From Ochromonas danica (Eukaryota > Sar > Chrysophyceae > Chromulinales > Chromulinaceae): a DNA stretch of 64,000 nt. Both the position numbers and the translations under genes were made by a program. Each line of letters starts with the position of its first letter. Within the stretch, counting starts at the first letter, position 1. The notes beneath the pieces are model-generated. The model made no database searches. It had not been told where the DNA came from and was given only the letters and a program-made list of their open reading frames with translations. This document shows positions 1,518-55,493 of this stretch, piece by piece. The stretch spans positions 1 through 64,000 of the forward strand of contig VKHL01000133.1 of assembly GCA_015146655.1 (NCBI GenBank). Reading direction: 5' to 3'.

Positions 1518-3815
1518 TCAGACTGCGATTCTCGTTCTTCCTGCTGTGGTTGTGGAAGGAGAGCGAACGCGTTCAATCTGATTGACTGTGCAATCATCAT
1601 CAACGACATCCTCTTCATCGGCACAGAATGGTACATCTTCGCCGTAATAATTAGTACCAAAAACACGGTCAATTGCATCTTGCTGATAAACAAATGGATC
1701 TATTGCAAGTGCTGGTGGATCGTAAGCATCAGGCACAGAAGTCACTGCGCTTCTATGAGACAAAACTCCTCCGCTTTGAGAAGAAGCCAAAGCAGGGACT
1801 TCTTCAACAACTGCCTTTGATGGCTTGTCCTGCGAGGATGAAGACTGAGGCTTCTCGTTCAAAGCTGCGGTAGATACCTTATTGCCGCGAAGCAACTGAC
1901 CACTTCGACTGGCGCTGAGCAACAACTTCGCCACAAAACCAACAGCACTGGAGCTATTCTTCTTCTTACGCTTGCGGTTTGCTATGGTAATACATCCATA
2001 GAGTACAAGTATAAATAACAGAAAGCGACATGAACAAAATAACAATACTTTACCATTGAGAATATAGGCTCTCATGAACTTCTTCTGCTCCTCCTCTGAG
2101 AAATACTCGCGCTTATGAGCCACCAAATGATAATACAACCAGCCCAAACAAATGAACCCCGCAAACACTGCCAATGCCACGTAATCATCCTCCTGGAAGA
2201 ACGCCAGACACACCATCATCAACGAATACACCGCCACCACCCAGTACGCCGCCCACTTCCCCAAAGGAGATCGGAACTGACGATCCAGATTGCTGTAGCG
2301 GTCATAGCAGATCATGTACGCTCTGGCCAAAGCGATATACACCGAGCACGAACCCAACATGCAGATGTTGAAAATCTTGCTCTCGAAGTTCGGCACCGAG
2401 TAGTACAAAATCAACAATGCCAAGTAGCTGATCACACTGCCCACCAACAACGACCGATGAGGAGTCTCATAGCGACCATACGTGCCTGATAAGAACCGAG
2501 GAAATAACCCAGACTTCGACATCGAATACAGCTGACGACCATACGCAAACATGAATCCGAACGCTGTCGAGAAGATGCCGGGTAACGCCAGATATGCTGC
2601 CACCATGTCGTTGGCTTGGAACACTGACTTGTACCCTGGATCCAAAGGAAAGGCTTCGCTCGATAATCCACTGGGACCTGGAGACAGAGAAGAGCTCACG
2701 AAGTACACCAACATGCATGTCACGAACAACGTGAACACACAAGCCAGGATGGCCCACGGCACTTGTTTGCCAGCCTACATAACAACCCCAACAACCATCC
2801 AATTGCATTGCAATGAACACACACAACAGTTAGACACTCTGAAAGAGTCAAAGGAAGCACAAACACAACACATACTGTACATCACACAAACACAACAGTA
2901 CATGCCGTCATCAATCCACATTACTCTCACTCCTCACATACACCACAACACACTACAATACACTAAAACCAAACAACACTCCGAACACCAACACTCACAT
3001 CCTTGATGTCATCGCACGTCAACGTCATCGCCTCCACTCCCACATAGAACCACGAAGCCAAAGGATAGTACAACATGAACTGATTCCCTCCGCCCAACAT
3101 GCCCGTCTCGAACTTCGGAAGATTCACTTCTGACAAACCTCCCAAACAATACACCAAGATCAATAGCAATGCCAACATCGCCTGAACATTGCTGAACTGC
3201 CAGAACACACTCCCTCCTGGAATACTCGTGGCCAGCGCGATCACATAGAAGATCAACCAGTAGAGAGGAGCATAATGTGCTGGAGCTCCTGTTAAGGCAG
3301 GGAAGAGCTCGCCAAATACCACCACTGAGGCGGAGACATAGAGGATGTACTCGATGGACTCACAGAAGCCGATAAGATATCCCATAGTAGGTCCCATGGC
3401 ACATCGAACATATCCATAGGATCCTCCAGCAAAGGAGAGGAAAGAAGTCATCTCAGCGATACAGAAACACAAACAAATGTATCCCGAAGAGACTAGAGCC
3501 ACAGCAATGAAGTATTCCCAGAAGCCCAGCTGCAGACCTGTCGTGTTCATCATTGTTGTGGTTGAGGCATTGGCTGGCTGGCGATAGTTGCAAATATCAA
3601 GTATCATACCTGTATTCCATGACGCTATTTGTCCTCCAATTACGATGGTGAGCCCTAGTATCATTTGAGCGTGGTTATCATTTCAGGATAAGAAAGGCTG
3701 ATTTATACTACGTAGTATGTGACCTACCCAGCCAATAGATGTCAAAGACAGAAGCGGAGCGTTCTTTTTGCTTCATTTCACCATCTTGAGGTGCAATCTT
3801 GGAGTAGTCATTCAT
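1518..3815 (-). CDS. APC-superfamily permease, ethanolamine-permease-like (family copy A)
   Basis: Exons 3815-3728, 3654-3610, 3537-2999, 2774-2054 and 1981-1518 join in frame to 618 residues. The core begins with a glycine-rich first helix (GLTIVIGGQIASWNTG) and continues with CIAEMTSFLSFAGGSYGYVR, the helix 2-3 region that in bacterial ethanolamine permeases (TC 2.A.3.5) reads similarly; about 12 hydrophobic segments follow. The substrate is probably an amine or amino acid taken up across a membrane, but this is inferred from family only. The first in-frame ATG is at 3815. The last exon encodes a ~155-residue hydrophilic tail rich in Ser, Lys and Asp, likely cytosolic. Exons 3 and 4 and the intron between them are nearly identical in three neighbouring genes; exons 1, 2 and 5 are not. 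Confidence 0.85.
2051..3526 (-). repeat. homogenised permease core, copy A
   Basis: This stretch (most of exon 3, the 224-nt intron 3, exon 4) is nearly base-for-base the same as 6274-7746, 9606-11105 and 13159-14640. Identity stops abruptly near GGCTTCTGGG at one end and at the end of exon 4 at the other. The intron carries one copy of a 27-bp unit that is doubled in copies C and D. Confidence 0.9.
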
Positions 3816-4157
3816 GCTTTCAAATGAGTGCTTGCCTCTTCCTGCTCTAACCGTCGGAGAGGAGCTATTCTGTTCCGACTTGACTTCAAGCGATGGGACC
3901 AACAGATGCTTGGCAGTGCTTGGCTATTCGCCCAACGGAACTCTCCACCGTCATCGTTAACGCAATTGATTAATCCTCAATTAAGGATTTACGCAATAAG
4001 TCGATCAAATACCGCAGCCAGAAACAAGTAGAGATCTAAATAACGTTACACTACTCTAACTTAATCAAAATTTCAAAGGTGCTGAGGAAGAAGCCTCACG
4101 CATAATCATTTAGCGCAAACAAAGGAATTGCAATGAGATAACTCAGCATCCATTCTT

Positions 4158-5695
4158 TCATGACAAAAGACGATTGCTATCCAGAATCACATCGTGTTGT
4201 AGAAGAGCCTTGTACTCATCCTCTTCAACTTCCTTGCGGTCCAAAATTTGGGATCCACTCAACAACGATTGCAATCCGTTGTTGAAGGAATCCAGTGGGC
4301 AAGAGAATGAGACCAGGTTATAGTAAAAGACAAGTCCCAGCGAGATGACGGCCAGGGAGAGACCTTCGCTCCATTGCCAGCCCTCACTCTGAGGAAGGAA
4401 AGGTAAGAGGAATACCATGTTGCCCAAAGGTACCAACAAAGTATGCGCCAGATAAAATCCACTTGCACTACCAAATTTCAACCACAAAATAGCAATTGCA
4501 GAATTGGTTTGGTTGAACAGCAGATAGAGATTAACAAAGATGGGGCTGTCGGGGTTGCACGAATCAGGCGTACAACTACCATCGTCGTCATCAGCACAGG
4601 TAAAGCTACTTATACCGAAGTAGCATTGAAGTCCTTGCCAGAGATTGAGAGGCAGGTCTGTCATTGGCACTGGAGGATCTGCTAAATAAGCAGATGGAAC
4701 AGTTAACACCAAAGCGAAGATTATTTGGAAGATTGCCACCCATCCATTGAAATAAATCTATGCCATGATTGTGCATTTAACCGAACAATCAAAACAGACG
4801 CAGAAATGATAGGATAGATATGATAGATGTGACATCATATGTGATATAATAGAAGGTGACGTACCGGATCAATATTCGCTGTTTCGGCCAAATATTTTTC
4901 TTTTATAACGGATGATAAAGAATGTGGAATGGCAGATAGTAGCAGGATGATGGACCACATGGCCATATTTCCTCCACTGCCAGTCTCTCCAATTCCGCCG
5001 TCCGAGACAAAAGCGGGGAGGACAACACAAATCACACCAACTGTAACCAATACAGCACCTAGATAGTGAGCTTTCTCATACTTCTTCCTCAATAGGTACT
5101 TAGAGAAGATCATGGTCACAGGGAGAGTCATCTGTCCCAGCAAGACGGTCCACCCGCCAGGCAAATAGGTCATGCTGAAGGTCTGCAATGCTGTGGCGAT
5201 AGCGTCCAGAGCGCCCAAAAAGGCCAAAATCCTTGTTGAAAGTGGGAAGTTCATAAAATTTGAAGAGGCAGTGGGCGTGGGGTCGCTGCGCGCCTGTCTG
5301 CTGGCCAGGAGGGCATAGGCCGCAGTGAAAGGAAGGTAAACGAAAGTGGTGAGCAGATTTAGAAACAGCGGATAGTGATACATAGGGATAGTCATAAGCT
5401 TATTAAATACTTTGTTCCCTAGACCAGCAAAGATCATACCCATGAAGAGAGCGAGCATTGCAGGCTGGGAGGGGCTTGCAACCATATTGTTGTTGTCTTT
5501 ATTGTCGTGGTAATCCTTCTCATCCCTCTTATTCCATTTTTCTGATAGATTATTGTAATTGATCAATGACGTGATAGAGCTGTCTTGCGCATTAGACTCG
5601 TTAGTCAACATGGCTTCATCATTTTGTGGAATTGGCACAATCCGCCTCCACTCCTCTGATCCAGTAGAAAGCAGCGGGCGAAAATACCTCTCCAT
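4158..5695 (-). CDS. CRT-like (chloroquine-resistance-transporter-like) drug/metabolite transporter
   Basis: Two exons, 5695-4865 and 4757-4158, join in phase 0 (donor GTACGT) to 476 residues. About 80 polar residues precede roughly ten hydrophobic helices. Recognisable CRT-family stretches are the AGLGNKVFNKL helix 1 region, the QTFSMTYLPGGWTVLLGQ segment with the conserved PGG, and DP|IYFNGWVAIFQ across the splice. A Cys-rich loop (CADDDDGSCTPDSC) between later helices matches the position of the disulfide loop seen in CRT proteins. Plant relatives (CLT1-3) export thiols such as glutathione from plastids and the Plasmodium one sits in the food vacuole; here the membrane is unknown. It lies between permease copies A and B and shares a ~375-bp upstream region with copy B. 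Confidence 0.85.
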
Positions 5696-5800
5696 GGCAG
5701 AAGGGCTGCAAATTCAATGCTGGCTGCGGCTCACTCCTTTTCTTACCGTGAACTTTAGGTCAGGATAATATCTTTTCTCTTATCGTAAATGTCAACTATT

Positions 5801-5832
5801 TAAGATAAGATAAGATAAGATAAGATAAGATA

Positions 5833-5862
<30 letters not shown>
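5801..5862. repeat. TAAGA pentanucleotide microsatellite in a bidirectional upstream region
   Basis: Twelve uninterrupted TAAGA/GATAA units lie between the divergent starts of the CRT-like gene (ATG 5695, minus) and permease copy B (ATG 6072, plus). Each unit contains a GATAA core, so the array could serve as a cluster of GATA-factor sites for both genes; that is inference. The rest of 5696-6071 shows no gene. Confidence 0.9.
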
Positions 5863-5863
<1 letters not shown>

Positions 5864-6071
5864 TACTAATAATAACTGTTCTCAATGTTATTTCCATCGA
5901 AATGTCTCCTAAAAACGCGAGTTAAAATCGATAAAAAGCGACTTTCCCCATCACTCTTCGCCTCGGAAAGAGAACAATTAGTCCAAAAACAATCGACGAG
6001 CAAGGCAGTGGTTAGATCAAACCAAATCAAACTGAGAAATATCCCTCCATGACCTGCTCAACTGAGCTGTA

Positions 6072-8189
6072 ATGAGCGAAAAGATTCTACCTTGGGGCTC
6101 AGATAAAATCGAAAGGCCTCGTCCTGCCAAAGTGTGGGATGTCTATTGGGTGGGACTGACCATTGTCATCGGCGGACAAATCATCTCCTGGAATGAAGGT
6201 AAAATTCCACCCTTCCCACCCTTCATGAAAAGATAACAATTTTCATCAAACTACCTTTACAGGTCTAAAAGCAGGCTTCTGGGAATACTTCATTGCTGTG
6301 GCTCTGGTCTCTTCGGGATACATTTGCTTGTGCTTCTGTATCGCTGAGATGACTTCTTTCCTCTCCTTTGCTGGAGGATCCTATGGATATGTTCGATGTG
6401 CCATGGGACCTACTATGGGATATCTTATCGGCTTCTGTGAGTCCATCGAGTACATCCTCTATGTCTCCGCCTCAGTGGTGGTATTTGGCGAGCTCTTCCC
6501 TGCCTTAACAGGAGCTCCAGCACATTATGCTCCTCTCTACTGGTTGATCTTCTATGTGATCGCGCTGGCCACGAGTATTCCAGGAGGGAGTGTGTTCTGG
6601 CAGTTCAGCAATGTTCAGGCGATGTTGGCATTGCTATTGATCTTGGTGTATTGTTTGGGAGGTTTGTCAGAAGTGAATCTTCCGAAGTTCGAGACGGGCA
6701 TGTTGGGCGGAGGGAATCAGTTCATGTTGTACTATCCTTTGGCTTCGTGGTTCTATGTGGGAGTGGAGGCGATGACGTTGACGTGCGATGACATCAAGGA
6801 TGTGAGTGTTGGTGTTCGGAGTGTTGTTTGGTTTTAGTGTATTGTAGTGTGTTGTGGTGTATGTGAGGAGTGAGAGTAATGTGGATTGATGACGGCATGT
6901 ACTGTTGTGTTTGTGTGATGTACAGTATGTGTTGTGTTTGTGCTTCCTTTGACTCTTTCAGAGTGTCTAACTGTTGTGTGTGTTCATTGCAATGCAATTG
7001 GATGGTTGTTGGGGTTGTTATGTAGGCTGGCAAACAAGTGCCGTGGGCCATCCTGGCTTGTGTGTTCACGTTGTTCGTGACATGCATGTTGGTGTACTTC
7101 GTGAGCTCTTCTCTGTCTCCAGGTCCCAGTGGATTATCGAGCGAAGCCTTTCCTTTGGATCCAGGGTACAAGTCAGTGTTCCAAGCCAACGACATGGTGG
7201 CAGCATATCTGGCGTTACCCGGCATCTTCTCGACAGCGTTCGGATTCATGTTTGCGTATGGTCGTCAGCTGTATTCGATGTCGAAGTCTGGGTTATTTCC
7301 TCGGTTCTTATCAGGCACGTATGGTCGCTATGAGACTCCTCATCGGTCGTTGTTGGTGGGCAGTGTGATCAGCTACTTGGCATTGTTGATTTTGTACTAC
7401 TCGGTGCCGAACTTCGAGAGCAAGATTTTCAACATCTGCATGTTGGGTTCGTGCTCGGTGTATATCGCTTTGGCCAGAGCGTACATGATCTGCTATGACC
7501 GCTACAGCAATCTGGATCGTCAGTTCCGATCTCCTTTGGGGAAGTGGGCGGCGTACTGGGTGGTGGCGGTGTATTCGTTGATGATGGTGTGTCTGGCGTT
7601 CTTCCAGGAGGATGATTACGTGGCATTGGCAGTGTTTGCGGGGTTCATTTGTTTGGGCTGGTTGTATTATCATTTGGTGGCTCATAAGCGCGAGTATTTC
7701 TCAGAGGAGGAGCAGAAGACATTCATGAGAGCCTATATTCTCAATGGTAAGTTGTCGTGATTAGAGTTAGATGTTGTTTATAGTTTTGCTTGACTGTGGT
7801 TTTCCTTGTTGTTCTTTCTAGCCAATTATAAGCGTCGTGTCGCTTTTACAGGATCTAGTTTGAGGAGGTACAAAAGTTATGTTCTCTCGAGTGCTTTTAG
7901 CAGTAAAAGGAATTCTGGTCGTTCGGATGGTCCTTCTGTTGTTTCTAAAGTGGCGTCGTTGAGGGTATCAAATAAACCCGGAGAATCTGTGTTGTTGGTT
8001 GAGGAAGCTCGTGATGAGACTTTTGTTAGTTTAACCAACGATCGTGTTGCTTCGGTGGATTTGGTTGACTCTGATAAGAGTGCTGAATTGTCCCTTCATC
8101 TTCCCATCCATCCACACGTCTCTTACTCTTCCTCGATATGTATGATGGATTTACACAATGAAGGCAAGCGAGAAGAGTTTTTCAATTGA
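6072..8189 (+). CDS. APC-superfamily permease, ethanolamine-permease-like (family copy B)
   Basis: Exons 6072-6198, 6263-6801, 7026-7746 and 7822-8189 join to 584 residues. It starts MSEKILPWGSDKIERPRP, unlike any sibling, then enters the shared permease core with ~12 hydrophobic segments. Its first exon is the equivalent of exons 1 and 2 of copies A, C and D fused: the intron after the YW-x-G residues is absent. The C-terminal exon gives a ~120-residue Ser-rich hydrophilic tail starting ANYKRR. The 3' end of the core, intron 4 and the first ~17 bases of the last exon are shared with copy C apart from a one-base length difference. Function as for copy A. Confidence 0.88.
6274..7839 (+). repeat. 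homogenised permease core, copy B
   Basis: Same tract as copy A in inverted orientation, with a single 27-bp unit in intron 3. Shared sequence with copy C runs further than with A and D, through intron 4 into the last exon, which means B and C exchanged sequence (or duplicated) separately from the four-way homogenisation. Confidence 0.88.
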
Positions 8190-9391
8190 TTTCAAAATGA
8201 CAGCTGACTGATTTCTTGCCAACTCTTGGCTGCCGATTTACTATTTTGTTTTGTGAGTATTTCTGAACTGCTCCATCACCATCAGATGATTGTTTTGAGG
8301 TCGACTCTGCCAGACGATATGCTGTATTTCTAGAGGTGGAGTGGTGTGGATCTACAATGTAGAGACAGATATTGCCAGATTTATGCCGAAGTTTGGTCGA
8401 CTAGATAGGAGCCATTAATGCGCGGCATGGAGGGATTATTTTTGTGTTTAGATTTATCCTTCTTGGGGCTTTTGTTGTGGAAAACAACAAATACCAAGAA
8501 GGCGTGATTGATTATGTGGTTATAACTGTATTATACTTCATTTATTATGGTGATGGTGAACAATATGTGCAGTTCAGTCTCTTGGAGCATGACACTATTC
8601 GATAAGATGTAGAATATTGCATATAAGATGAGCAATAGAGGCTTCATAATGACCTCGATCATCTCTTATGATCTAATTAATTAGACATGTAAGAAAAGCC
8701 GTGAAGGTAGATTCAATGAGTTGTGTTGGTTCTATTTGTAACACATGTGAGGACTGACTGACTTGCATAGGTAGTAGTAGAATTGTAAATATGGAAAATC
8801 AACTCTAATTCAATTGAAAGAGTCACTTTTGTTGGTAGATGATTCCTCAGTTTTAACTCTTTGGATTGCAGTTAGTCGGGCTTCTGTCTTCCACAGCCTT
8901 CGTTGCTCTGAATGATCATAATCATTTCCGCACCAATTATGCAGTCAATTTAACCGCCCAGTTCTTGTTACAGGAAAATAGATTAACATCAGGTGCCATT
9001 CTCTCTGTCTCGTGGGACTACCCATAATTACAGTAGCCTCCCTGCCTTACTGCTGGAAATATGGTTACCAAATTATGTAGACCTGGTCTAGTCTAATCGA
9101 ATTACGGTGAGCTTGTGCTGTCCTGTCCGTTGCAACATGTTAGGTGCAGGACACTGTGAAAAACACGAGTAAATCTCACAATGTCCACTAGCAAAAGTCA
9201 TAGCAAGCTGCTCACCTCCTCGCCGCAACTGCTGGCACAACGCAACTTTCGCATACAAAGCAAACAAAACAATTAGTCCATCAAAACAAGGCATTAATAG
9301 GACCAGTCCTCGAAGAGCGAATGAGTTTGCTTTTCCAAATACTATGCTAGACAAGAGTGTTCCATCAGAAACCGAGAATACTGATCGTAAA
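8190..9391. other. intergenic, no gene seen
   Basis: 1.2 kb between the tandem permease copies B and C. AT-rich, with no long frame, no recognisable peptide, and no similarity that I can see to the flanks of the other permease copies. It presumably holds the 3' UTR of B and the promoter of C. Confidence 0.5.
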
Positions 9392-11490
9392 ATGGCTAAA
9401 TTCTTCGACATCTATTTTCTCGGTTAGTTTCCAAAACATGCCCTGCCAACAAAAGACAAAAAGAATAAATAAATATCTTCTTCACATAGGTCTAACAATA
9501 GTAATTGGTGGGCAAATAATATCTTGGAATGAAGGTAAGCACTCAATACAATCACATCATCATTTCCAAACAAAACCAACCAATCCTCGCTTAGGTCTAA
9601 AAGCAGGCTTCTGGGAATACTTCATTGCTGTGGCTCTGGTCTCTTCGGGATACATTTGCTTGTGCTTCTGTATCGCTGAGATGACTTCTTTCCTCTCCTT
9701 TGCTGGAGGATCCTATGGATATGTTCGATGTGCCATGGGACCTACTATGGGATATCTTATCGGCTTCTGTGAGTCCATCGAGTACATCCTCTATGTCTCC
9801 GCCTCAGTGGTGGTATTTGGCGAGCTCTTCCCTGCCTTAACAGGAGCTCCAGCACATTATGCTCCTCTCTACTGGTTGATCTTCTATGTGATCGCGCTGG
9901 CCACGAGTATTCCAGGAGGGAGTGTGTTCTGGCAGTTCAGCAATGTTCAGGCGATGTTGGCATTGCTATTGATCTTGGTGTATTGTTTGGGAGGTTTGTC
10001 AGAAGTGAATCTTCCGAAGTTCGAGACGGGCATGTTGGGCGGAGGGAATCAGTTCATGTTGTACTATCCTTTGGCTTCGTGGTTCTATGTGGGAGTGGAG
10101 GCGATGACGTTGACGTGCGATGACATCAAGGATGTGAGTGTTGGTGTTCGGAGTGTTGTTTGGTTTTAGTGTATTGTAGTGTGTTGTGGTGTATGTGAGG
10201 AGTGAGAGTAATGTGGATTGATGACGGCATGTGCTGTTGTGTTTGTGTGATGTACAGTATGTGTTGTGTTTGTGTGATGTACAGTATGTGTTGTGTTTGT
10301 GCTTCCTTTGACTCTTTCAGAGTGTCTAACTGTTGTGTGTGTTCATTGCAATGCAATTGGATGGTTGTTGGGGTTGTTATGTAGGCTGGCAAACAAGTGC
10401 CGTGGGCCATCCTGGCTTGTGTGTTCACGTTGTTCGTGACATGCATGTTGGTGTACTTCGTGAGCTCTTCTCTGTCTCCAGGTCCCAGTGGATTATCGAG
10501 CGAAGCCTTTCCTTTGGATCCAGGGTACAAGTCAGTGTTCCAAGCCAACGACATGGTGGCAGCATATCTGGCGTTACCCGGCATCTTCTCGACAGCGTTC
10601 GGATTCATGTTTGCGTATGGTCGTCAGCTGTATTCGATGTCGAAGTCTGGGTTATTTCCTCGGTTCTTATCAGGCACGTATGGTCGCTATGAGACTCCTC
10701 ATCGGTCGTTGTTGGTGGGCAGTGTGATCAGCTACTTGGCATTGTTGATTTTGTACTACTCGGTGCCGAACTTCGAGAGCAAGATTTTCAACATCTGCAT
10801 GTTGGGTTCGTGCTCGGTGTATATCGCTTTGGCCAGAGCGTACATGATCTGCTATGACCGCTACAGCAATCTGGATCGTCAGTTCCGATCTCCTTTGGGG
10901 AAGTGGGCGGCGTACTGGGTGGTGGCGGTGTATTCGTTGATGATGGTGTGTCTGGCGTTCTTCCAGGAGGATGATTACGTGGCATTGGCAGTGTTTGCGG
11001 GGTTCATTTGTTTGGGCTGGTTGTATTATCATTTGGTGGCTCATAAGCGCGAGTATTTCTCAGAGGAGGAGCAGAAGACATTCATGAGAGCCTATATTCT
11101 CAATGGTAAGTTGTCGTGATTAGAGTTAGATGTTGTTTATAGTTTTGCTTGACTGTGTTTTCCTTGTTGTTCTTTCTAGCCAATTATAAGCGTCGTGCTG
11201 CTGGTGGTAATAGTATTCGTGCTGTACTGGGGCCGTTTGTTTATGCTTTAGTAAAGTCTTCTTCTCGCCGTCGTGCCAGCATTTCATTTCAAAGTGGATT
11301 GTCTTCCTCTAAGGATAATGCTAAGAGCGAGCCGCGTTCCACTGTACAGTCGCGTTCGCTTCGATTTGTGAGCTCGGTCTCTATTCACGTTGAAGAGCAA
11401 GTTACTAACATTGTTGAAGATATTGATGATGGCTTTGGTCATGACTTCGATCAAACTGCAAGCATGCAACCTATTTCAGATGTTCCATGA
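9392..11490 (+). CDS. APC-superfamily permease, ethanolamine-permease-like (family copy C)
   Basis: Exons 9392-9422, 9490-9534, 9595-10133, 10385-11105 and 11180-11490 join to 548 residues, the shortest of the four. The N-terminal cytosolic segment is only about ten residues (MAKFFDIYFLG) before helix 1, compared with ~30-40 in the siblings. Exon 2 is a 45-nt micro-exon in phase 1, as in copies A and D. The core is nearly identical to the others; intron 3 is 251 nt because a 27-bp unit is doubled. The last exon encodes a ~100-residue Arg/Ser-rich tail starting ANYKRR and then diverging from copy B. Confidence 0.87.
9606..11197 (+). repeat. homogenised permease core, copy C
   Basis: Near-identical to the cores of A, B and D; intron 3 has the 27-bp unit in two tandem copies, as in D but not A or B. 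The extension through intron 4 to the start of the last exon is shared only with B. Confidence 0.88.
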
Positions 11491-12652
11491 GATCCTGTGA
11501 TACTTTAGTCTTGCTGATCTATTGTTTGCGTTCTGAGTGCTTCAACTTCTCAACTTGTAATCCTTTTGACAGTCAAATAGAAGTGGGCAAAGAGAGTCAC
11601 AGTCTTGCTGACTGCGCGTTCATGTTGTGAGAATTGATTTTTGGTACAATTGCATGAGTGAATGAAGAGTCTCCTCTCGTCTTGTACTAGTATTATCTTG
11701 TGCGCTAGATGCGCTACCTTTTTGTTCGTCGTCGTGCTATTCTGTTCTCTTCAAATTGTTGTTTTTGAAGAGCGAAGTTCTTTGAAATTTTCTTCTTTTC
11801 TTGTGGTGATGGTATTGCAAAGCACTCAAATCAAATGTTTGTTTTATAATTGATCCTGTTTCTTTTCATTGGCCAGCAGCTGTTGGTTTTAGACTATGCC
11901 TCGATGGTTTGGAGGCTGCTCTGTCCTATGCTGTACTTTCCTGCTCCTGCTGGTTTAGCTTGTTGTCAACAACAACAACAATGTGGTGGACCACTTTCCT
12001 TCTGTACGTGAGTTGGTATTATTGTAGTATGTGTATAATATAGCAGATTACTAGTAGCTTTCTACTTGTTGTAAATGACCGCTAATCAAAGATGATCAGC
12101 TTCTTCGTCCATCATGTCCATTGCGTGTAAAGCAAAACAAAATCATCATCACCTGCCTAGCTGGCTGGCTACTTGCTAAAGTTACAAACACGCCGGATTA
12201 TCAGCAGGTTCTATCCATATTAGAAAATGTAAACAAATTATCATCCAAAAGAAAATGCACTTAACAGTAAAATTGACTAACTAACTATCAATAGACTAAC
12301 TGGAGCAGTAAACACAAACCACGTGAAGCTATCGACCCACTGGCAATTGGATCGCGTAGAGCCAAACCCAGATGAATCAATCCTCACTCCACGTGAATAC
12401 AACAACACCTGGTACAAATTGTCATGATACAGACATGATGAACACCAATGAACGGTCTCGTGCAGTCGTGTACTATTGCCATCTCTCTAGCAAGATAGCA
12501 CGAATAAAGGAAATGTATATACAATGGATAACTAAGAATAGACAAAGCGACCAATAAGACCAACCAAGTCATTCGAACAGCTACCCCCTGAGACCGAGTA
12601 TCAACGATCTAAAGGAGAATTAGTAAACAAGTAAACAGTGATATGATGTCAC
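11491..12652. other. convergent intergenic region, no gene seen
   Basis: 1.2 kb between the stops of copies C (plus) and D (minus). Only short frames; AT-rich. It should hold both 3' ends. I see no RNA gene or repeat array. Confidence 0.5.
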
Positions 12653-14925
12653 TCACTGATCATCCGCCACGAGATGAGCGGAGCGGACTTCTTCGATGTT
12701 ATCCAGCAGTCTGCCCTGCCGAATTGCGGCAGAAGCACGAATGCCATAATAAGGTGACGACAAGTCCTTCTGACCAATAGCTTCATCATCGGATGAAGGA
12801 GCTTGGAAGGATGTGCGAAGTAATGCCAAGCCAGGCACTTCTGTGATCTTAGACCGGATCGAATCTGATTGACCGCTAACGCCAGCATCAATTCCATTCT
12901 CAGCAGAGGGATGCACTTGATTGTCCAGCAACTTGCGGCTATTCACCATCTTAGAGGCGGAATGAGAAGTCTTGTTTGGAGCCAATTGCTGACCAGAGGA
13001 GGAGAAAAAGAGTTTCTTGACGAACGACAAGGACGAAGAGCGAAGAGCAGAAACTTTCTTCTTGCGAATATTAGCTATCCAACACACACTACATTAGCAC
13101 AAAGCACAGCACACACAAAACACAGTGAAATAGAGCTCACCGTTCAAGACATACGCTTTCATGAACTTCTTCTGCTCCTCCTCTGAGAAATACTCGCGCT
13201 TATGAGCCACCAAATGATAATACAACCAGCCCAAACAAATGAACCCCGCAAACACTGCCAATGCCACGTAATCATCCTCCTGGAAGAACGCCAGACACAC
13301 CATCATCAACGAATACACCGCCACCACCCAGTACGCCGCCCACTTCCCCAAAGGAGATCGGAACTGACGATCCAGATTGCTGTAGCGGTCATAGCAGATC
13401 ATGTACGCTCTGGCCAAAGCGATATACACCGAGCACGAACCCAACATGCAGATGTTGAAAATCTTGCTCTCGAAGTTCGGCACCGAGTAGTACAAAATCA
13501 ACAATGCCAAGTAGCTGATCACACTGCCCACCAACAACGACCGATGAGGAGTCTCATAGCGACCATACGTGCCTGATAAGAACCGAGGAAATAACCCAGA
13601 CTTCGACATCGAATACAGCTGACGACCATACGCAAACATGAATCCGAACGCTGTCGAGAAGATGCCGGGTAACGCCAGATATGCTGCCACCATGTCGTTG
13701 GCTTGGAACACTGACTTGTACCCTGGATCCAAAGGAAAGGCTTCGCTCGATAATCCACTGGGACCTGGAGACAGAGAAGAGCTCACGAAGTACACCAACA
13801 TGCATGTCACGAACAACGTGAACACACAAGCCAGGATGGCCCACGGCACTTGTTTGCCAGCCTACATAACAACCCCAACAACCATCCAATTGCATTGCAA
13901 TGAACACACACAACAGTTAGACACTCTGAAAGAGTCCAAGGAAGCACAAACACAACACATACTGTACATCACACAAACACAACACATACTGTACATCACA
14001 CAAACACAACAGTACATGCCGTCATCAATCCACATTACTCTCACTCCTCACATACACCACAACACACTACAATACACTAAAACCAAACAACACTCCGAAC
14101 ACCAACACTCACATCCTTGATGTCATCGCACGTCAACGTCATCGCCTCCACTCCCACATAGAACCACGAAGCCAAAGGATAGTACAACATGAACTGATTC
14201 CCTCCGCCCAACATGCCCGTCTCGAACTTCGGAAGATTCACTTCTGACAAACCTCCCAAACAATACACCAAGATCAATAGCAATGCCAACATCGCCTGAA
14301 CATTGCTGAACTGCCAGAACACACTCCCTCCTGGAATACTCGTGGCCAGCGCGATCACATAGAAGATCAACCAGTAGAGAGGAGCATAATGTGCTGGAGC
14401 TCCTGTTAAGGCAGGGAAGAGCTCGCCAAATACCACCACTGAGGCGGAGACATAGAGGATGTACTCGATGGACTCACAGAAGCCGATAAGATATCCCATA
14501 GTAGGTCCCATGGCACATCGAACATATCCATAGGATCCTCCAGCAAAGGAGAGGAAAGAAGTCATCTCAGCGATACAGAAGCACAAGCAAATGTATCCCG
14601 AAGAGACTAGAGCCACAGCAATGAAGTATTCCCAGAAGCCCAGCTGCAGACCTGTCGTGTTGGAAGAGGATGCGAAGGGTTAGTGTGTTGTGTTGGTTTG
14701 GGTGTCCGAGGGAGAGTCTTACCTGCATTCCAGGAGGTGATCTGCCCACCAATCACAATGGTGAGGCCTATCGAGTAGCATAGCATGGATTGATAATGAC
14801 ACATCGGGTTGTGGTTGGGATAGTTTGACTTGCTCACCTAGCCAGTAGATGTCGTGGATCTTGGCAGGTGCGATGCGCTCAGTGACGTGGCTATCCGAAG
14901 GTCGAACTTGACTTGTGTCTTTCAT
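12653..14925 (-). CDS. APC-superfamily permease, ethanolamine-permease-like (family copy D)
   Basis: Exons 14925-14838, 14767-14723, 14651-14113, 13861-13141 and 13074-12653 join to 604 residues. Exons 1 and 2 have the same lengths as in copy A (88 and 45 nt) although the encoded N-terminus (MKDTSQVRPSDSHVTERI) differs. The core is nearly identical to the siblings except its last ~20 bases, where it diverges (KKFMKAYVLNG instead of KKFMRAYILNG in A). The tail starts ANIRKKK and is ~140 hydrophilic residues. Copies A and D also share a few bases of intron 2 and the LQLGFWEY start of exon 3, whereas B and C read LKAGFWEY. Confidence 0.87.
13159..14640 (-). repeat. homogenised permease core, copy D
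   Basis: Inverted relative to C and near-identical to A, B and C, with the doubled 27-bp unit in its 251-nt intron 3. Together with A it gives an inverted-repeat layout (A minus, B plus, C plus, D minus). Confidence 0.88.
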
Positions 14926-36614: not shown

Positions 36615-39485
36615 TAGAGTGGCTGGCCCATGGCAGGCCCAGGCATGGCCCCAAAGGCCCACGGGCCGGCAGTCCCGCGGGGGGCCTTTGGGGCCCGAGC
36701 CATGGTTTAAGTCCACATTTTGCATTTATAAGTAACATCTCTCACTGTGAAAAACCGGACTCTTAAAATCGGCTTTTAGTTTGATCCGTTTCTTGTTGAT
36801 TCCTGGGATTGTGATCATTTCTTGTTGAGAATGATTCCGGTTGAAATGGAAGCTATTGAAGATAGCGAAGTCATCATGGATGATAAATTAGGCGGCGATG
36901 GACAGGAGGAGGAGGAGTTCCTGCAACCTCACAATTACCTGGATGTGTTCTGGACAGCAGCAGGCATTTTCCTTCGCTCTGCGTCCAACACGAGGTCTGG
37001 GTCACACTCAGCCCGCCACCTTGCGAAGTGTCAATTCTGCACTAAAACGTTTCGCGGAGAAAGTCAACGCTGCCTAAAGCATGTGAACGAATGCACCCAA
37101 ATTCCTGCACACAAGAAGGAAGAGTATCTGGACGCTGTTCAGAGCTCCAACAAGAAACAAAAAGTTGGTTTGACTTCAGCGGAGGAGATTACGGAAGTCC
37201 TCAAAGACGATGACGATGAGACGCTGATCTTGAAGGGGGTGATAGCGAAGAACATCCCATTTCGTTCGCTTTATGATAATGTTTACATTAAGGAATATTT
37301 GAGGCGACATGGTCTGCACCTGCAACACCGTGACACTGCCAGGGGACGAGTCGAAGACCTCTATAAGGAGTACCGTCGGCGGGTGGAGAGGAAACTCGAT
37401 GACTATCGGTGCTGCAGAGAACTGACATTGATGCTGGATGGGAGTGATGACGTATCGAGGAACTCCATATACCTCTTTATGTTGGCCAGCAGAAAGGAAG
37501 CGTTCATGATGAAACTCATTGATGTTTCATCAGCCTCCCACACTACCGACTTCCTGCTAGGAAAGATAGATGTAGTGCTTGAAGAATGGTCGCTTTCTCT
37601 GGCTAATATTCTGGCCTGTACTACGGACAATCCTACCACGATGAAATCCTTGCGAGAGAAGCTGTCGACGAAGAATGTTGGCATTGCATCGGTCCCTTGC
37701 GCTCTTCACGTCCTCAACTCTCTGACGAAGGATTTACTGAATGAGAAGTCCACTGTCGAGCTGATACAGTGTTTTTCCGAAACCTTCCATCGCGTTGCTT
37801 CTATGGTGAGCTACGCCCACCGCTCTTACCGCTGGAATGCTGCTATGAAGAAGGAAATCGAGAATAATCCGAACATCAAGCAGGAGATTGCTGCATTCTT
37901 CAAAGTTAGATGGTACACAGCTGCCAAAGTGGCTCAAGGTGTTGACAGGTTTGCCAGCCTGTTCAAGAGTTTGATTGTCAGAGGGGAGTCAAAAGAAGAA
38001 GACTTTCCACAGCCAGATGCAAATATCATCAATCATTTTACGGACGAATGCCTCTACTTCTGGAATGCTGTCCTCGCGAAGTTTCTCGGCGCAATTGCAG
38101 ATTCCATTGCAAACCTGCAGCATAAGCAGGCCACAGTCGACCAGATTCTGATCAACTTTTTGCATTTGGACTGGAAGTTTCGGAAGTTCGTCGAAGAGGA
38201 AGGTCTGCTGACGGTGGAACAGGGATTGGCAGTAATGAAGCTGCTGTCGGATCGATGTCTCACCTACTGTTCGACTGATTTCCTCTTCGTTCTCTCTCTT
38301 CTTCTCCATCCTCAATTTAAGAGGACGGCGATGACTTCGAAAACGTGGGAACTTTCTAGTGCTGAGCAAGTTCTACAGCAGGTCTTCAAGTTTCTGCACC
38401 AGAATGAGTGGTATGCTGAGCTATACAGACAAGAAGAAGTCCCAACAATGATTAAGGAGCTGATACAGTACATCAACATTAACACAGCGACCACCCAGTC
38501 TTCCTTTCGTGAGTTTTGGCAGGACGACAGTGTGCAATTTCCTCTTCTCCAACGCCTGGCGCTGAGGCTGATGGACATCAAGCCACATACGGCAGTCGCA
38601 GAAGGAATGTTCTCATCCTTGCACCTGATAAAAACCAAGTCCAGGAATCGTTTGGAGGTGGAGAAAGTCAATCAGATGGGGTTTTTGCAGGTGGAGATGT
38701 TCAAGGAGGTTCTGTCCTTCCCTGCACAGCCAAGGGTCAGCTCCTTCTCTATTAATAGCGGCTTCACCTTGGATGCAAACGACGAAGAATATGTCTTCTC
38801 GGACAAATCTGACTCAGTCCCAGATTCAGACTTTTACCAAGAGGAGACGCAGAGCGAGAAGGGAGTTAATCCCATGGACATCCTCCCTTCAGGATCTCGC
38901 CCGTACGCCACCCGATCATCGTTGTTGGTTGCAAACAACCAGACGACGTCCTCGAGCTCCTCGCCATCATCAGTTCCCGTCGTCCCTTCTCTGCCTCATA
39001 CTATTGGGTTGGGCAGTTTTTCTGCCCAATGCTTTTTCTCCAAGGTGCCTGCCGAGGAGAAGCAGGCGCAGCCACTCGTTCTCAATACTACCACGAATAG
39101 TTATGACTTCCTGGGTATGCTGCCTGCTTTTATATGAATCTTTGATCTCTTTTACATGATGATATCTTTTCCTGTAAATAATAAAACGCTACCAGAGTTG
39201 AGAGAAGAAGAACTTGCTTGGAAAACTGCTGAGTACAATAGAAGTTAAATAACAACCTACCAATAGAAGTTGTGGTAATTTTATTATTACATTGTATAAC
39301 AACGACTGAGTCAAAAGTCACAATTCTAAAACTACCATATCCTTAGTTTTCAAACCTCAGCTATAAAGTCACAAATCTCAAAAAACTTGCATATCCTTAG
39401 TTTCAAACCTTAGTGCGGGCATTGCCCAGGGCAGGCCCAGAAGGGACCTGGGCAATGGGCCAAGGCCCGTGGGCCAGCCACTCTA
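36615..39485 (+). mobile_element. hAT-superfamily DNA transposon, structurally complete
   Basis: The 2,871-bp element is bounded by a perfect 16-bp terminal inverted repeat (TAGAGTGGCTGGCCCA at 36615-36630; its complement at 39470-39485). It is flanked by 8-bp target duplications GTTACTAC (36607-36614) and GTTACAAC (39486-39493) that differ at one base. GGCCC-rich subterminal repeats lie inside both ends, as is common for hAT transposase binding. It carries one uninterrupted transposase gene. The TAGAG ends and 8-bp duplication are hAT hallmarks. The single mismatch in the duplication suggests an insertion that is not brand new, while the open frame argues against great age. Confidence 0.92.
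36831..39137 (+). CDS. hAT transposase with N-terminal BED zinc finger
   Basis: 768 residues from the first in-frame ATG, no interruption. The N-terminal C-x2-C ... H-x4-C finger (CQFCTKTFRGESQRCLKHVNEC, residues ~70-92 in part) is BED-type and should bind the element ends. The RNase-H-like core includes LMLDGSDD (first catalytic Asp region), ILACTTDNPTTMKSL (second Asp, the family CxDN motif) and ALHVLNSLTKDLL. The C-terminal hAT dimerisation region reads MDIKPHTAVAEGMFSSLHLI followed by KTKSRNRLEVEKV, holding a candidate catalytic Glu. The last ~130 residues are Ser-rich. The overall order matches DUF659/hAT-C transposases, so the protein may be functional. Confidence 0.88.
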   Translation: MIPVEMEAIEDSEVIMDDKLGGDGQEEEEFLQPHNYLDVFWTAAGIFLRSASNTRSGSHSARHLAKCQFCTKTFRGESQRCLKHVNECTQIPAHKKEEYLDAVQSSNKKQKVGLTSAEEITEVLKDDDDETLILKGVIAKNIPFRSLYDNVYIKEYLRRHGLHLQHRDTARGRVEDLYKEYRRRVERKLDDYRCCRELTLMLDGSDDVSRNSIYLFMLASRKEAFMMKLIDVSSASHTTDFLLGKIDVVLEEWSLSLANILACTTDNPTTMKSLREKLSTKNVGIASVPCALHVLNSLTKDLLNEKSTVELIQCFSETFHRVASMVSYAHRSYRWNAAMKKEIENNPNIKQEIAAFFKVRWYTAAKVAQGVDRFASLFKSLIVRGESKEEDFPQPDANIINHFTDECLYFWNAVLAKFLGAIADSIANLQHKQATVDQILINFLHLDWKFRKFVEEEGLLTVEQGLAVMKLLSDRCLTYCSTDFLFVLSLLLHPQFKRTAMTSKTWELSSAEQVLQQVFKFLHQNEWYAELYRQEEVPTMIKELIQYININTATTQSSFREFWQDDSVQFPLLQRLALRLMDIKPHTAVAEGMFSSLHLIKTKSRNRLEVEKVNQMGFLQVEMFKEVLSFPAQPRVSSFSINSGFTLDANDEEYVFSDKSDSVPDSDFYQEETQSEKGVNPMDILPSGSRPYATRSSLLVANNQTTSSSSSPSSVPVVPSLPHTIGLGSFSAQCFFSKVPAEEKQAQPLVLNTTTNSYDFLGMLPAFI

Positions 39486-41425: not shown

Positions 41426-42294
41426 GAAGGTTGTTGAGCAGGTCTTGCACTCGGATGAGAAGAAGGTTGAGACGAGAGCTGCGCACTGAGTGATGCGGAA
41501 GGTTGGTGAGCAGGTCTTGCACTCGGATGAGAAGAAGGTTGAGACGAGAGCTGCGCACTGAGTGATGCGGAAGGTTGTTGAGCGGGTCTTGCACTCGGAT
41601 GAGAAGAAGGTTGAGACGAGAGCTGCGCACTGAGTGATGCGGAAGGTTGTTGAGCAGGTCTTGGCACTCGGATGAGAAGAAGGTTGAGACGAGAGCTGCG
41701 CACTGAGTGATGCGGAAGGTTGTTGAGCAGGTCTTGCACTGGGATGAGAAGAAGGTTGAGACGAGAGCTGCGCACTGAGTGATGCGGAAGGTTGTTGAGC
41801 AGGTCTTGCACTCGGATGGGAAGAAGGTTGAGACGAGAGCTGCGCACTGAGTGATGCGGAAGGTTGTTGAGCAGGTCTTGCACTCGGATGAGAAGAGGGT
41901 TGAGACGAGAGCTGCGCACTGAGTGATGCGGAAGGTTGTTGAGCAGGTCTTGCACTCGGATGAGAAGAAGGTTGAGGCGAGAGCTGCGCACTGAGTGATG
42001 CGGAAGGTTGTTGAGCAGGTCTTGCACTCGGATGAGAAGAAGGTTGAGACGAGAGCGGCGCACTGAGTGATGCGGAAGGTTGTTGAGCAGGTCTTGCACT
42101 CGGATGAGAAGAAGGTTGAGACGAGAGCTGCGCACTGGGTGATGCGGAAGGTTGTTGAGCAGGTCTTGCACTCGGATGAGAAGAAGGTTGAGACGAGAGC
42201 TGCGCACTGAGTGATGGGGAAGGTTGTTGAGCAGGTCTTGCACTCGGATGAGAAGAAGGTTGAGACGAGAGCTGCGCACTGAGTGATGCGGAAG
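41426..42294. repeat. 72-bp minisatellite, about 12 units
   Basis: Tandem copies of a 72-bp unit (start GAAGGTTGTTGAGCAGGTC) with only a few base changes between units; one unit is 73 bp, which shifts the frame. Because 72 is a multiple of three, long stop-free frames run through it on the minus strand, coding a 24-residue repeat (ITQCAALVSTFFSSEC and onward in one frame). No conserved protein is recognised, so I treat the frames as a by-product unless expression is shown. Confidence 0.93.
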
Positions 42295-52499: not shown

Positions 52500-55493
52500 T
52501 TAATTCAGCGCATAGCGGGCTGCTGTGTCGCCTTCGCCCCCCGTGCCCCTCAACACTGCAGAGCGAAGCAAACTGAAGGAAGGACCTCTCCTTTCGTGCA
52601 GAGGGCGATGGCGTAGACTACCTCCGCTGCCTTCCACACCATGAGCCAATGTGAGGGCAGAAGAAGCCTCCATGTCGTCACCTAGCATCGACTGAATGAG
52701 GTTGTCTCGATGGTCTTCGAAGGCCTCGTCTTTGACGATGAACTCTGGCACCACATGAGAGATCAACTTGATGCTACCCGTGACCATTCCTCGGATGGAA
52801 TCTCTCCATTTGTCAGAGATGGAGCGCGAAGAGTTACCGAATGAAGAGGTGTTGCTGAGTGAAGAGGGCAAGGCAGCGGGGTGGTGCAGAGGACTGTGTG
52901 CTCCGTCATGACTGCTGCTGTCCTGGCTGCCTAGACTGTTCCTCCTGCTCCTGCTCCCACTGCTACTGCGGTTAGCGAAGAAGACATTCTCCGTGCTATC
53001 GCCGCCGCCCTCATCGTCCACCCCAGCGATCAAGGACTGGTTCAGAGGAAGATCTAGTTCTTCCGAAGACGACGAGAAGATTGACGGCACCACACGATGA
53101 TTATTCATCAAGTGCACAGTGAAGCTGGGCAGTCGCTGGACTGGTTGCATGGATTGAGTCAACAGCTCTCTCTGCGATAAGTCATCTCCTTGCTTGCCAT
53201 CCTCAGCATCGGCAGACTGAATGCGAGTAACAGGGGAGATAGGAGTGTCTATATTATCCACTGGCTCGCCTCTTCCCACCATCTCGAAGGGTAACACTGC
53301 AGAACAAGTTCTGTCGCACAAGTTCTGGTGAATGGCTGGCACCGCGGGGGCGTTGTCTTCATTGTCAGCGCTGTGATCCAAAATGGAAGGCAGCGTGAGA
53401 TGCATTTGATTGGAAGCCTTCGATTGCCTTCTTTCTCGATCAGTCTTGTACATCTTCCTGCTATCCACCTGACTTAACAAATTCTCGCTTTCAAGTCCCC
53501 TCTGGGCATCATCAGAGACGTCACAGACGCCAGCAAAATCTCCTTGTGCCGCCAGCAAGTGGTCCACGATAGCGCTTGGGTTGTAGAAGGAATGCTGTGC
53601 TGTAGAAGACGCGGAGACTGCGCCGCTTCCGACAGAGTTCCCTGTTCGATGAGTGTTAACGCTGCGGCTGCAAGGTGATTTGCCAGCAGTCGGAGCATGT
53701 AGTCGGTGAGAGGGAGTGGTGGCGGAGGAGGCGGCAGAGAAAGACGCCCTGTGACTCGCCTTGAGCTTGTAGCGACGATTAGCTGCACATAGTCGACACA
53801 CGCACAGACACAGACACACAGACACACACACAAGCGTTAGATCATCATCACCATTATTGTTATTGTTATGCAGTCAGGCCGTGTAACTCACAATTAATGA
53901 CGTAGGCGATGAACATCACCTTCTGCTCCTCCGCTGAGAATCCCTGGCCCAGGCGAATGACCCAGCCGTAGACTATCGTGACAAAGACGACGAAGCCGAG
54001 GAAGATAAGCGCAGTGCGATAGGAGTTCTCATGCAGCACTATGGCAGTAGTCCATGCGAGGAGCAGCAAGATCCCACTCCAACCCACGCCATAGAGACCC
54101 AAAGGCTGGGCAAATGCTCTGGGCAGAGAGATGAACTTCTTGTGGAAACAGAAGTATGCAGCGAGGATATTCAAGCCAATAAGGCTCGTGGCATGGAATG
54201 CGACGACATTAGCAATGAGGATGACTCGAAGACATACACACTCTGCTATGACCATGAGCATCAAAATGAGAGTCGCAGTCACCACCAGCGCCACGTATGG
54301 GACCTCATCACTGCCATATTGGCACTTCAGCACTGCGGGTAGCAAGCTACTCTCCGCCATAGAATGCAGCTGGTTACTGTAGACGCGGACTAAGGCGGAG
54401 GAGGTGGCGAACAACGCTGGGATGGAGAGCGCCTTGGCCACTCGTTTGCCCACGTGCAGGCCATGAGTGTAGCCATAATAGGCAGGAGGAATATCGCGAA
54501 GTGCAGCAGCAATGGCGCTGCTACCTGGAGAGTGACATCCCATGACAATGACGAGCAGCAATGCGTTGAGGAAGATGACCGCGAAGGCGATCAGAAAGGA
54601 GCGAGGCACAGTCTTCTTCGGCTAATAGAACACATCCATAAGGGAGAGGTAAAGCAGAGAGACAGCGATGAAGAGTGAGGAAGAGCCTACTGTACCTCGA
54701 TGGCATCTTTGCAGGCCATGGGCAGCAGTTCCAGGCCATAGAAGAAGATCGTGGAATAAGGCAAAAACTTGAACCACTGACGAGCAGAGCCTTCGCCTTC
54801 AAAGAAGCCGTTCCCATCATAGCGTTCGCAATCCACACAAGGCAAGCTGACAGCATAGTAGACTAGCAGCAGAGCCAGAGCCACTCCAATCAACAACGTG
54901 TTGCTCCTCCAAAAGCTCTGCATGCCCATCAGATTGATTGCCAAAGCCAGAGCCAAGAGCAGCAGACAGAAGAGGAAGGAGAATCTTGGCGGCACACCCA
55001 GCAGTTCTGCAGCATATCTCCCTGCAGGCAGCAGCAGAGAGCTGGAGTAGACGATGCTCTGCAAAATCTCACAGCAGCCGATGAGGAAGCCTGGATAGGG
55101 ACCCAGAGTCACTCGAATGAAGCCATAGAGACCTCCCCCGAAGGGAAGGGCGGAGGTCATCTCTGCCAGGCAGAAGACGATGCAGAGGTAGGCTGAGCCT
55201 AGCAGGAAGGTGCTGAGGAGGAACTCGGCCATGCCCACCTCCAGGCCCTGCTGCCAGTACAAGACGCTTCCTCCTAGCCCCAAGGAAATACCTACACAAA
55301 ACAGCACCAGCCAAGTCAGAGTGTTTGTTTTCAGAGAGCATGGCAAAGCAATGGGCGGAGCGGGGCGGTGGTCACCTAGCAGCGTGACTTCCAACAGAGT
55401 TCTGCTGGAGTCGCCTCGCTTGTGCAGGCTAAGAGACAAAGAAGTCACTAGGGGCTGAGGATTGCTATCTGGTAAATGGGATGTTTCTTCCAT
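52500..55493 (-). CDS. APC-superfamily permease, diverged fifth family member (copy E)
   Basis: Exons 55493-55376, 55291-54696, 54621-53892 and 53782-52500 join to 908 residues. The core aligns with copies A-D (GISLGLGGSVLYWQQGLEVG, FCLAEMTSALPFGGGLYGFI, then PKKTVPRSFLIAFAVI). Three intron positions and phases match: phase 1 after the helix-1 glycine, phase 0 after the CDDIKD/CKDAIE segment, phase 1 before the (S/A)NRR tail. The intron after WNEG/WQQG is absent. Its DNA is not homogenised with the cluster. The tail is ~425 residues, Ser-, His- and Asp-rich, three times longer than in the siblings, and probably cytosolic and regulatory. Confidence 0.85.

Follow-up and report, generated by a model that had tools for sequence, protein, structure and literature searches.

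Gene conversion that homogenises a functional domain in neighbouring paralogues, with cytoplasmic tails that diverge, has been described for paired immune receptors such as CD300A/CD300C and CEACAM1 with its relatives bearing immunoreceptor tyrosine-based activation motifs (ITAMs) (PMC12447643, PMC2832619). In protists, the tandem amino acid transporter genes of the trypanosomatid AAT loci are reported to show gene conversion and concerted evolution (PMC1810246, PMC1855330), and for the trypanosome arrays short conversion tracts and no ectopic events are described (PMC1810246). Among stramenopiles, conversion was proposed by the authors who reported the identical silicon transporter genes SuSIT1 and SuSIT2 of Synedra ulna (PMC6114903). 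Moreover, the Leishmania glucose transporters GT1-GT3 are described as close relatives whose location is set by an unlike N-terminal hydrophilic domain (PMC9024700, PMC6070740), GT1 being a precedent for a location decided by the tail (PMC9024700). Here we analyse four permease genes, A to D, on a 64,000-nt stretch of DNA (hereafter the window; positions 1-64000 of contig C133, VKHL01000133.1) from Ochromonas danica (Chlorochromonas danica), a mixotrophic chrysophyte reported to be tetraploid (PMC7954800), of which a strain has been sequenced with HiFi reads of mean length 18 kb (PMC12220804). Judging from the sequence, A-D are very probably old paralogues of the APC type (AA_permease_2) whose membrane core has been repeatedly overwritten by interlocus gene conversion, the tails escaping it. 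Among the best-ranked open-access literature we found nothing that describes this cluster or gene conversion in the permeases of chrysophytes.

Results

A four-way alignment places the homogenised core at 2081..3526 in A (minus strand), 6274..7719 in B (plus), 9606..11078 in C (plus) and 13168..14640 in D (minus). The copies measure 1,446-1,473 bp, and their 1473 alignment columns hold five substitutions and one 27-bp indel, which bears out an earlier sequence-only reading of the window that had described a near-identical core of ~1.5 kb including an intron. In columns 612-2024 (1413 columns) the differences come down to two single nucleotide polymorphisms (SNPs) and the indel, all within this core intron, and 1162 coding bp of the core are without any difference among the four copies. 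The core intron (A, 2775..2998, minus strand; B, 6802..7025, plus; C, 10134..10384, plus; D, 13862..14112, minus) is identical in A and B, which are without the 27-bp unit; C and D carry the unit and one private SNP each. It had been called intron 3, which holds for A, C and D; in B, which lacks the first intron present in the other three, it is intron 2. A search of the 31.19-Mb, 337-contig assembly, to which all genome searches reported here refer, returned matches to the core intron in A-D alone. Given that the intron was copied too and is confined to A-D, exchange at the level of DNA is indicated rather than selection on the protein. As for other origins of the core copies, retroposition is ruled out by the retained intron, and the same search gave no sign that the core is a mobile element.

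The edges of the core are abrupt. In 50-bp windows across the four copies, a single window at the 5′ edge takes identity from 10-63% to 96-100%, and the 3′ edge shows the reverse drop. Around the core/tail junction, DNA identity is 97-100% in the two 300-bp blocks upstream and 51-61% at +30..+330 bp in 6/6 pairs; after shuffling, 60 pairs of 300 bp give 50.8 +/- 1.5% (maximum 53.8). A base-by-base alignment with a plot of identity had been suggested as a check on whether the flanks are equally similar, and they are not.

Across the six pairs, 385-392 of 389-392 degenerate codons in the core are identical (B-C 392/392), and a silent-site run test with the paralogues C22 and C243 as outgroups puts 6/6 pairs at its floor of p=0.0005. 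The nearest foreign core proteins are 62-73% identical. Strong selection on the core protein or core RNA could be imagined to hold old paralogues identical without copying, the core being the conserved part of the protein. However, near-total identity of degenerate codons together with identity of an intron is beyond the reach of protein selection, and C22 and C243, whose core proteins are 64-65% identical to A-D, share 46-48% of degenerate codons with them. We regard such selection as scarcely conceivable.

Outside the core, the four genes have retained old sequence. Exon 2, which in three genes precedes the core by about 65 bp, encodes GLTIVIGGQIxSWNxG. Its protein identity among A-D is 79-100%, yet its silent sites are saturated: B and C agree in 19/19 residues but in 7/18 degenerate codons, and the other five pairs share 5-8 of 14-16. 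For identical degenerate codons the difference between core and exon 2 is significant in all six pairs (Fisher p 8.9e-10 to 2.6e-17). At 36-50%, the silent identity of exon 2 lies in the range seen when the A-D cores are compared with those of C22/C243, and therefore the ends look about as old as C22/C243. The first exons had been held to be unrelated, which the homology of exon 2 contradicts. A-D thus show silent and intron identity within a tract and divergence outside it, the pattern of concerted evolution.

The last exons encode private C-tails of 154 aa in A (1518..1981, minus strand), 122 aa in B (7822..8189, plus), 103 aa in C (11180..11490, plus) and 140 aa in D (12653..13074, minus). 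Each has a single match in the genome, and a genome search with each tail found no donor elsewhere for any of the four. All four last exons begin A-N-x-(K/R)-(K/R), a family start also seen across paralogues. Tails A and D are significantly alike (0/500 shuffles attain the score), B-C and C-D are weakly similar (7/500), and the similarity is not significant for A-B (67/500), B-D (177/500) and A-C (326/500). The claim that the last exons are unrelated fails for the pair of tails A and D and for the common start. Over 137 residues the D tail matches P0062 of a relative at 85% identity, the last ~35 residues being nearly unchanged, and given this conservation the tails seem to matter. C22 and C243 are 81% identical in their cores and 45% identical over 114 aligned residues of their tails.

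These ends bear on a second history, also raised by the sequence-only reading, in which the copies of one recently duplicated gene acquired new exons at their N- and C-terminal ends, whether through recombination or exon shuffling. A core block nearly the same in all four copies would fit, the flanking exons permit a symmetric phase-1 module, and in public models exon 2 runs in frame into the last exon. Yet exon 2 is homologous and silent-saturated, the last exons have the family start, tail donors were not found in the genome, the D tail is present in a relative and groupings within the core conflict (see below); this history is disfavoured and we consider it very unlikely. In the public models concerned, P0059, P0060 and P0061, exon 2 (of B, D and C, respectively) is followed immediately by the last exon, and the core of ~420 residues is missing from each. 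Its absence is probably an annotation effect, the repeated core having been masked, and the alternative splicing that these models might suggest, with the core skipped, was set aside in favour of that explanation. As public models drop the core, the copy number, function and expression of such genes will be misjudged.

At both the 5′ edge (columns 546-584) and the 3′ edge (columns 2025-2026) A+D stand against B+C, and the strongest tail similarity likewise joins A+D. The 27-bp indel of the core intron instead sets A+B against C+D, that is, the inverted neighbours. Moreover, the A/D tract extends into the intron preceding the core, and the B/C tract runs through a near-identical last intron (one 1-bp indel in 75) to enter the last exon by 18 bp (7720..7839 in B and 11079..11197 in C, both on the plus strand). 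It follows that introns other than the core intron are not all unrelated, as had been supposed. Conflicting groupings and pair-specific tract edges together require more than one exchange. Concerted evolution of A-D is thus also apparent as conflicting genealogies along the gene and as significant silent runs, and recent copying of the core by gene conversion, the first proposal of the sequence-only reading, is strongly supported by the silent-site, intron, run-test and grouping evidence.

The exchanging might instead have been done by reciprocal crossing over, including inversions between inverted copies, with N- and C-tails re-paired. A/B and C/D are inverted neighbours with 1.5-kb arms at 99% identity, and three pairs of C78 copies would also suit it: 78046/91795 (N 97%, C 73%), 81054/88480 (N 97%, C 76%) and 81054/91795 (N 85%, C 85%); copy 75032 was excluded from this comparison, as its N-end resembles a wrong start. 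However, conversion of one end would look the same in C78. Within the window, both edges and the tails carry the (A,D),(B,C) signal, and therefore the N- and C-ends stayed together. Furthermore, the ends of B, C and D are paired in the same way in public O. danica models, these ends being identical to the consecutively numbered models P0059, P0061 and P0060, respectively. Crossing over as the agent of exchange is in our view unlikely.

An assembly artefact would have pasted a single core sequence into several loci. The short-read O. danica models do break in the core: EukProt model P0042, identical to the last 224 residues of B, begins mid-core, and P0058, identical to 160 residues in the last part of A, at the core end. 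In contrast, the 64,000-nt window has zero N, and the SNPs and the indel that tell the copies apart lie some 300-700 bp into the core. Another gene set contains the ends of B, C and D in three successive models, and a separate scaffold spans the point in B where core meets tail. We consider an artefact extremely unlikely.

A genome search for a single core exon yielded 158 candidates and, among them, 150 scored matches; A-D are included, and many matches fall into tied-score groups. For comparison, 20 genomic stretches with family members were taken. In C168, C78 and C42, codon profiles show complete silent identity beside saturated stretches; for C20 and C161, which are different contigs, the cores are almost the same and the tails unlike. 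Of eight other groups put to the silent-run test, seven contain one or more significant pairs: C168 (6/10), C78 (4/21), C49/C88 (4/10), C42/C205 (3/10), C24 (1/10), C20/C161 (1/3) and C94/C158 (1/28), the eighth being C39 (0/6); a group needed three or more reading frames to be included, which left out C4. Three of the four significant C49/C88 pairs are C88 copies alike over nearly the whole coding sequence. For a junction comparison, 40 genes were anchored at EEQ..F.(K/R)AY..N and the core (-300..0) was set against +30..+330; C39 and C78 were not anchorable and were excluded. Core and downstream identity were 100 vs 66-77% in C42 (3 pairs), 99-100 vs 65-75% in C88 (3 pairs), 96-98 vs 50-51% for C20-C161 (2 pairs) and 94-95 vs 40-52% in 2/3 pairs of C4. 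In most genes the junction is followed by an intron; it is read straight through in C88, C49, C11, C198 and C36, and always continues with A-N or a variant.

Two of these regions deserve separate description. C78:70500-94500 holds seven permease genes in mixed orientation, the N-tail and C-tail similarities of which disagree, and this suggests re-paired ends. C94:2000-7500 and C158:158-5623 correspond over 5.5 kb at 96.6% identity, in inverted order and at a contig end, possibly as a retained haplotype or a segmental duplication in a genome reported to be tetraploid.

Several points weigh against repeated conversion of the core, in A-D or in the wider family. The evidence comes from one assembly of one strain, with conversion read from sequence comparison. 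The silent-site run test is a permutation that assumes sites to be exchangeable, and where a group has introns, the reading frames analysed extend slightly into them. C39 has no significant pair and C24 has one of ten. The significant C20/C161 pair is made up of both C20 copies, and the design of the test cannot address C20 vs C161. A haplotype or a segmental copy could account for the significant C94/C158 pair. Lastly, the C49 pair is 100% identical on both sides of the junction and is an ordinary recent duplicate.

Gene B scores above the gathering cut-offs of PF13520 (AA_permease_2; 80.9 bits vs 27) and PF00324 (AA_permease; 78.2 vs 24.6). The best named NCBIfam match, the ethanolamine permease equivalog TIGR00908, reached 156.5 bits, under its cut-off of 381.75. 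We examined the fold on the homologue P0001, 62% identical to B, for which the model (mean predicted local distance difference test, pLDDT, 79.6; predicted template modelling score, pTM, 0.76) has the LeuT/APC fold. Its best Foldseek match was 5oqt_A (probability 1.00, TM-score 0.78 by target), and AdiC and BasC were also matched. The body of the model is confident, and residues 1-17 and 490-596 have pLDDT <50. From these low values at both ends of P0001, the tails of A-D are predicted to be probably disordered, and from the family topology we take them to be cytosolic. A-D thus resemble paired receptors in architecture, a homogenised functional domain being joined to unlike, presumably cytosolic tails.

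The order of the genes is A(-) B(+) C(+) D(-), and spliced models agree with the span of 1518-14925 that had been given for four permease genes. Gene A (1518..3815, minus strand; 618 aa) has exons at 3728-3815, 3610-3654, 2999-3537, 2054-2774 and 1518-1981; gene B (6072..8189, plus; 584 aa) at 6072-6198, 6263-6801, 7026-7746 and 7822-8189; gene C (9344..11490, plus; 564 aa) at 9344-9422, 9490-9534, 9595-10133, 10385-11105 and 11180-11490; and gene D (12653..14925, minus; 604 aa) at 14838-14925, 14723-14767, 14113-14651, 13141-13861 and 12653-13074. All introns are GT/AG and the reading frames are open to the stop. Paralogue C22 matches O. danica model P0004 over 157 residues at the start and 148 at the end. 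Two further, distant permease paralogues lie on the same contig, at 54705-55205 of the window (minus strand) and at C133:64847-65359 (36% and 34%). Between A and B is a CRT-like gene of the drug/metabolite transporter superfamily (4158..5695, minus strand), in the interval that an A/B crossover would invert. Its open reading frame (ORF) at 4835-5695 scores 136.6 bits for PF08627 (cut-off 26.9), and we infer that ORF 4158-4739 continues the gene from this upstream ORF.

Elsewhere in the window, an ABC transporter gene on the minus strand carries a stretch of 270 bp that is the same, bar one difference, in both of its nucleotide-binding domains (59329-59598 and 61853-62122), the DNA being diverged on both flanks; a genome search revealed no third copy of this tract above 70%. 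As transporters of this kind consist of two anciently duplicated halves, the 270-bp identity is best read as copying within the gene. From the sequence, a probable explanation is intragenic gene conversion, parallel to that of the permease core. Contigs C279, C7, C97, C9 and C5 hold many ABC transporter matches whose scores are tied in twos or threes, a hint that this family too has recently been duplicated or homogenised. The window also contains a tandem array at 41426-42294, with units of ~72 bp that are 97-98% identical on self-comparison, and a 768-residue ORF at 36831-39137 (plus strand) that by eye resembles a hAT-type transposase.

Discussion

We propose that the converted tract runs from the second half of the first transmembrane segment (TM1) to the cytosolic EEQ..F..AY(I/V)LN motif, the latest overwriting being so recent that 1162 coding bp show no difference. 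The N-terminal exons and the last exon, outside the tract, have kept their own old sequence. The copying may have been mostly non-reciprocal conversion and not crossing over, ceasing where protein constraint no longer holds the DNA similar enough to pair. As pairing would be possible only where protein constraint keeps the DNA alike, conversion would start and stay in the membrane body; each conversion would ease the next, and drifting tails would drop out of exchange. The benefit may be one standard transporter body with several disordered cytosolic tails, possibly setting place, turnover or regulation. Given the predicted disorder of the tails and the precedent of the Leishmania glucose transporters, it is plausible that a constant body with variable cytosolic tails gives different targeting or regulation.

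A bolder and improbable extension is that the inverted identical cores act as an exchange hub, re-pairing N-terminal ends (with their promoters) and C-terminal tails. Were this so, inversion at A/B or C/D plus conversion elsewhere would amount to combinatorial tail-shuffling over a family of 150 exon-level matches, and would perhaps suit a cell that shifts one permease between plasma membrane and food vacuole.

Of the known systems, bacterial ethanolamine permease (TIGR00908) and other APC transporters supply the best NCBIfam name and the fold of A-D, the score being far under the cut-off. SuSIT1 and SuSIT2 differ in that their identity covers whole genes, divergent ends not being described in the part of that report considered here (PMC6114903). 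The parallel with the Leishmania glucose transporters is one of function alone; in A-D both ends vary. Compared with the AAT loci, the tract of A-D is long (~1.45 kb) and lies between inverted copies; the AAT transporters are, we presume, not of PF13520, the APC family of A-D. The closest pattern is that of the paired immune receptors, in which the homogenised part is described as the ligand-binding ectodomain, about 112 residues in CD300. A-D differ from these in that the whole multi-span body of ~416 residues is homogenised, in four copies, with both ends divergent, and in an alga. Partial concerted evolution with divergent tails is known from paired immune receptors and new for transporters, and A-D represent a transporter version of it that recurs in one genome. 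This is an unusually clean natural case, found in several clusters of a single genome, of a transporter body kept uniform by DNA copying with tails that evolve independently, and it makes testable which transporter properties reside in the tails under a naturally constant membrane body.

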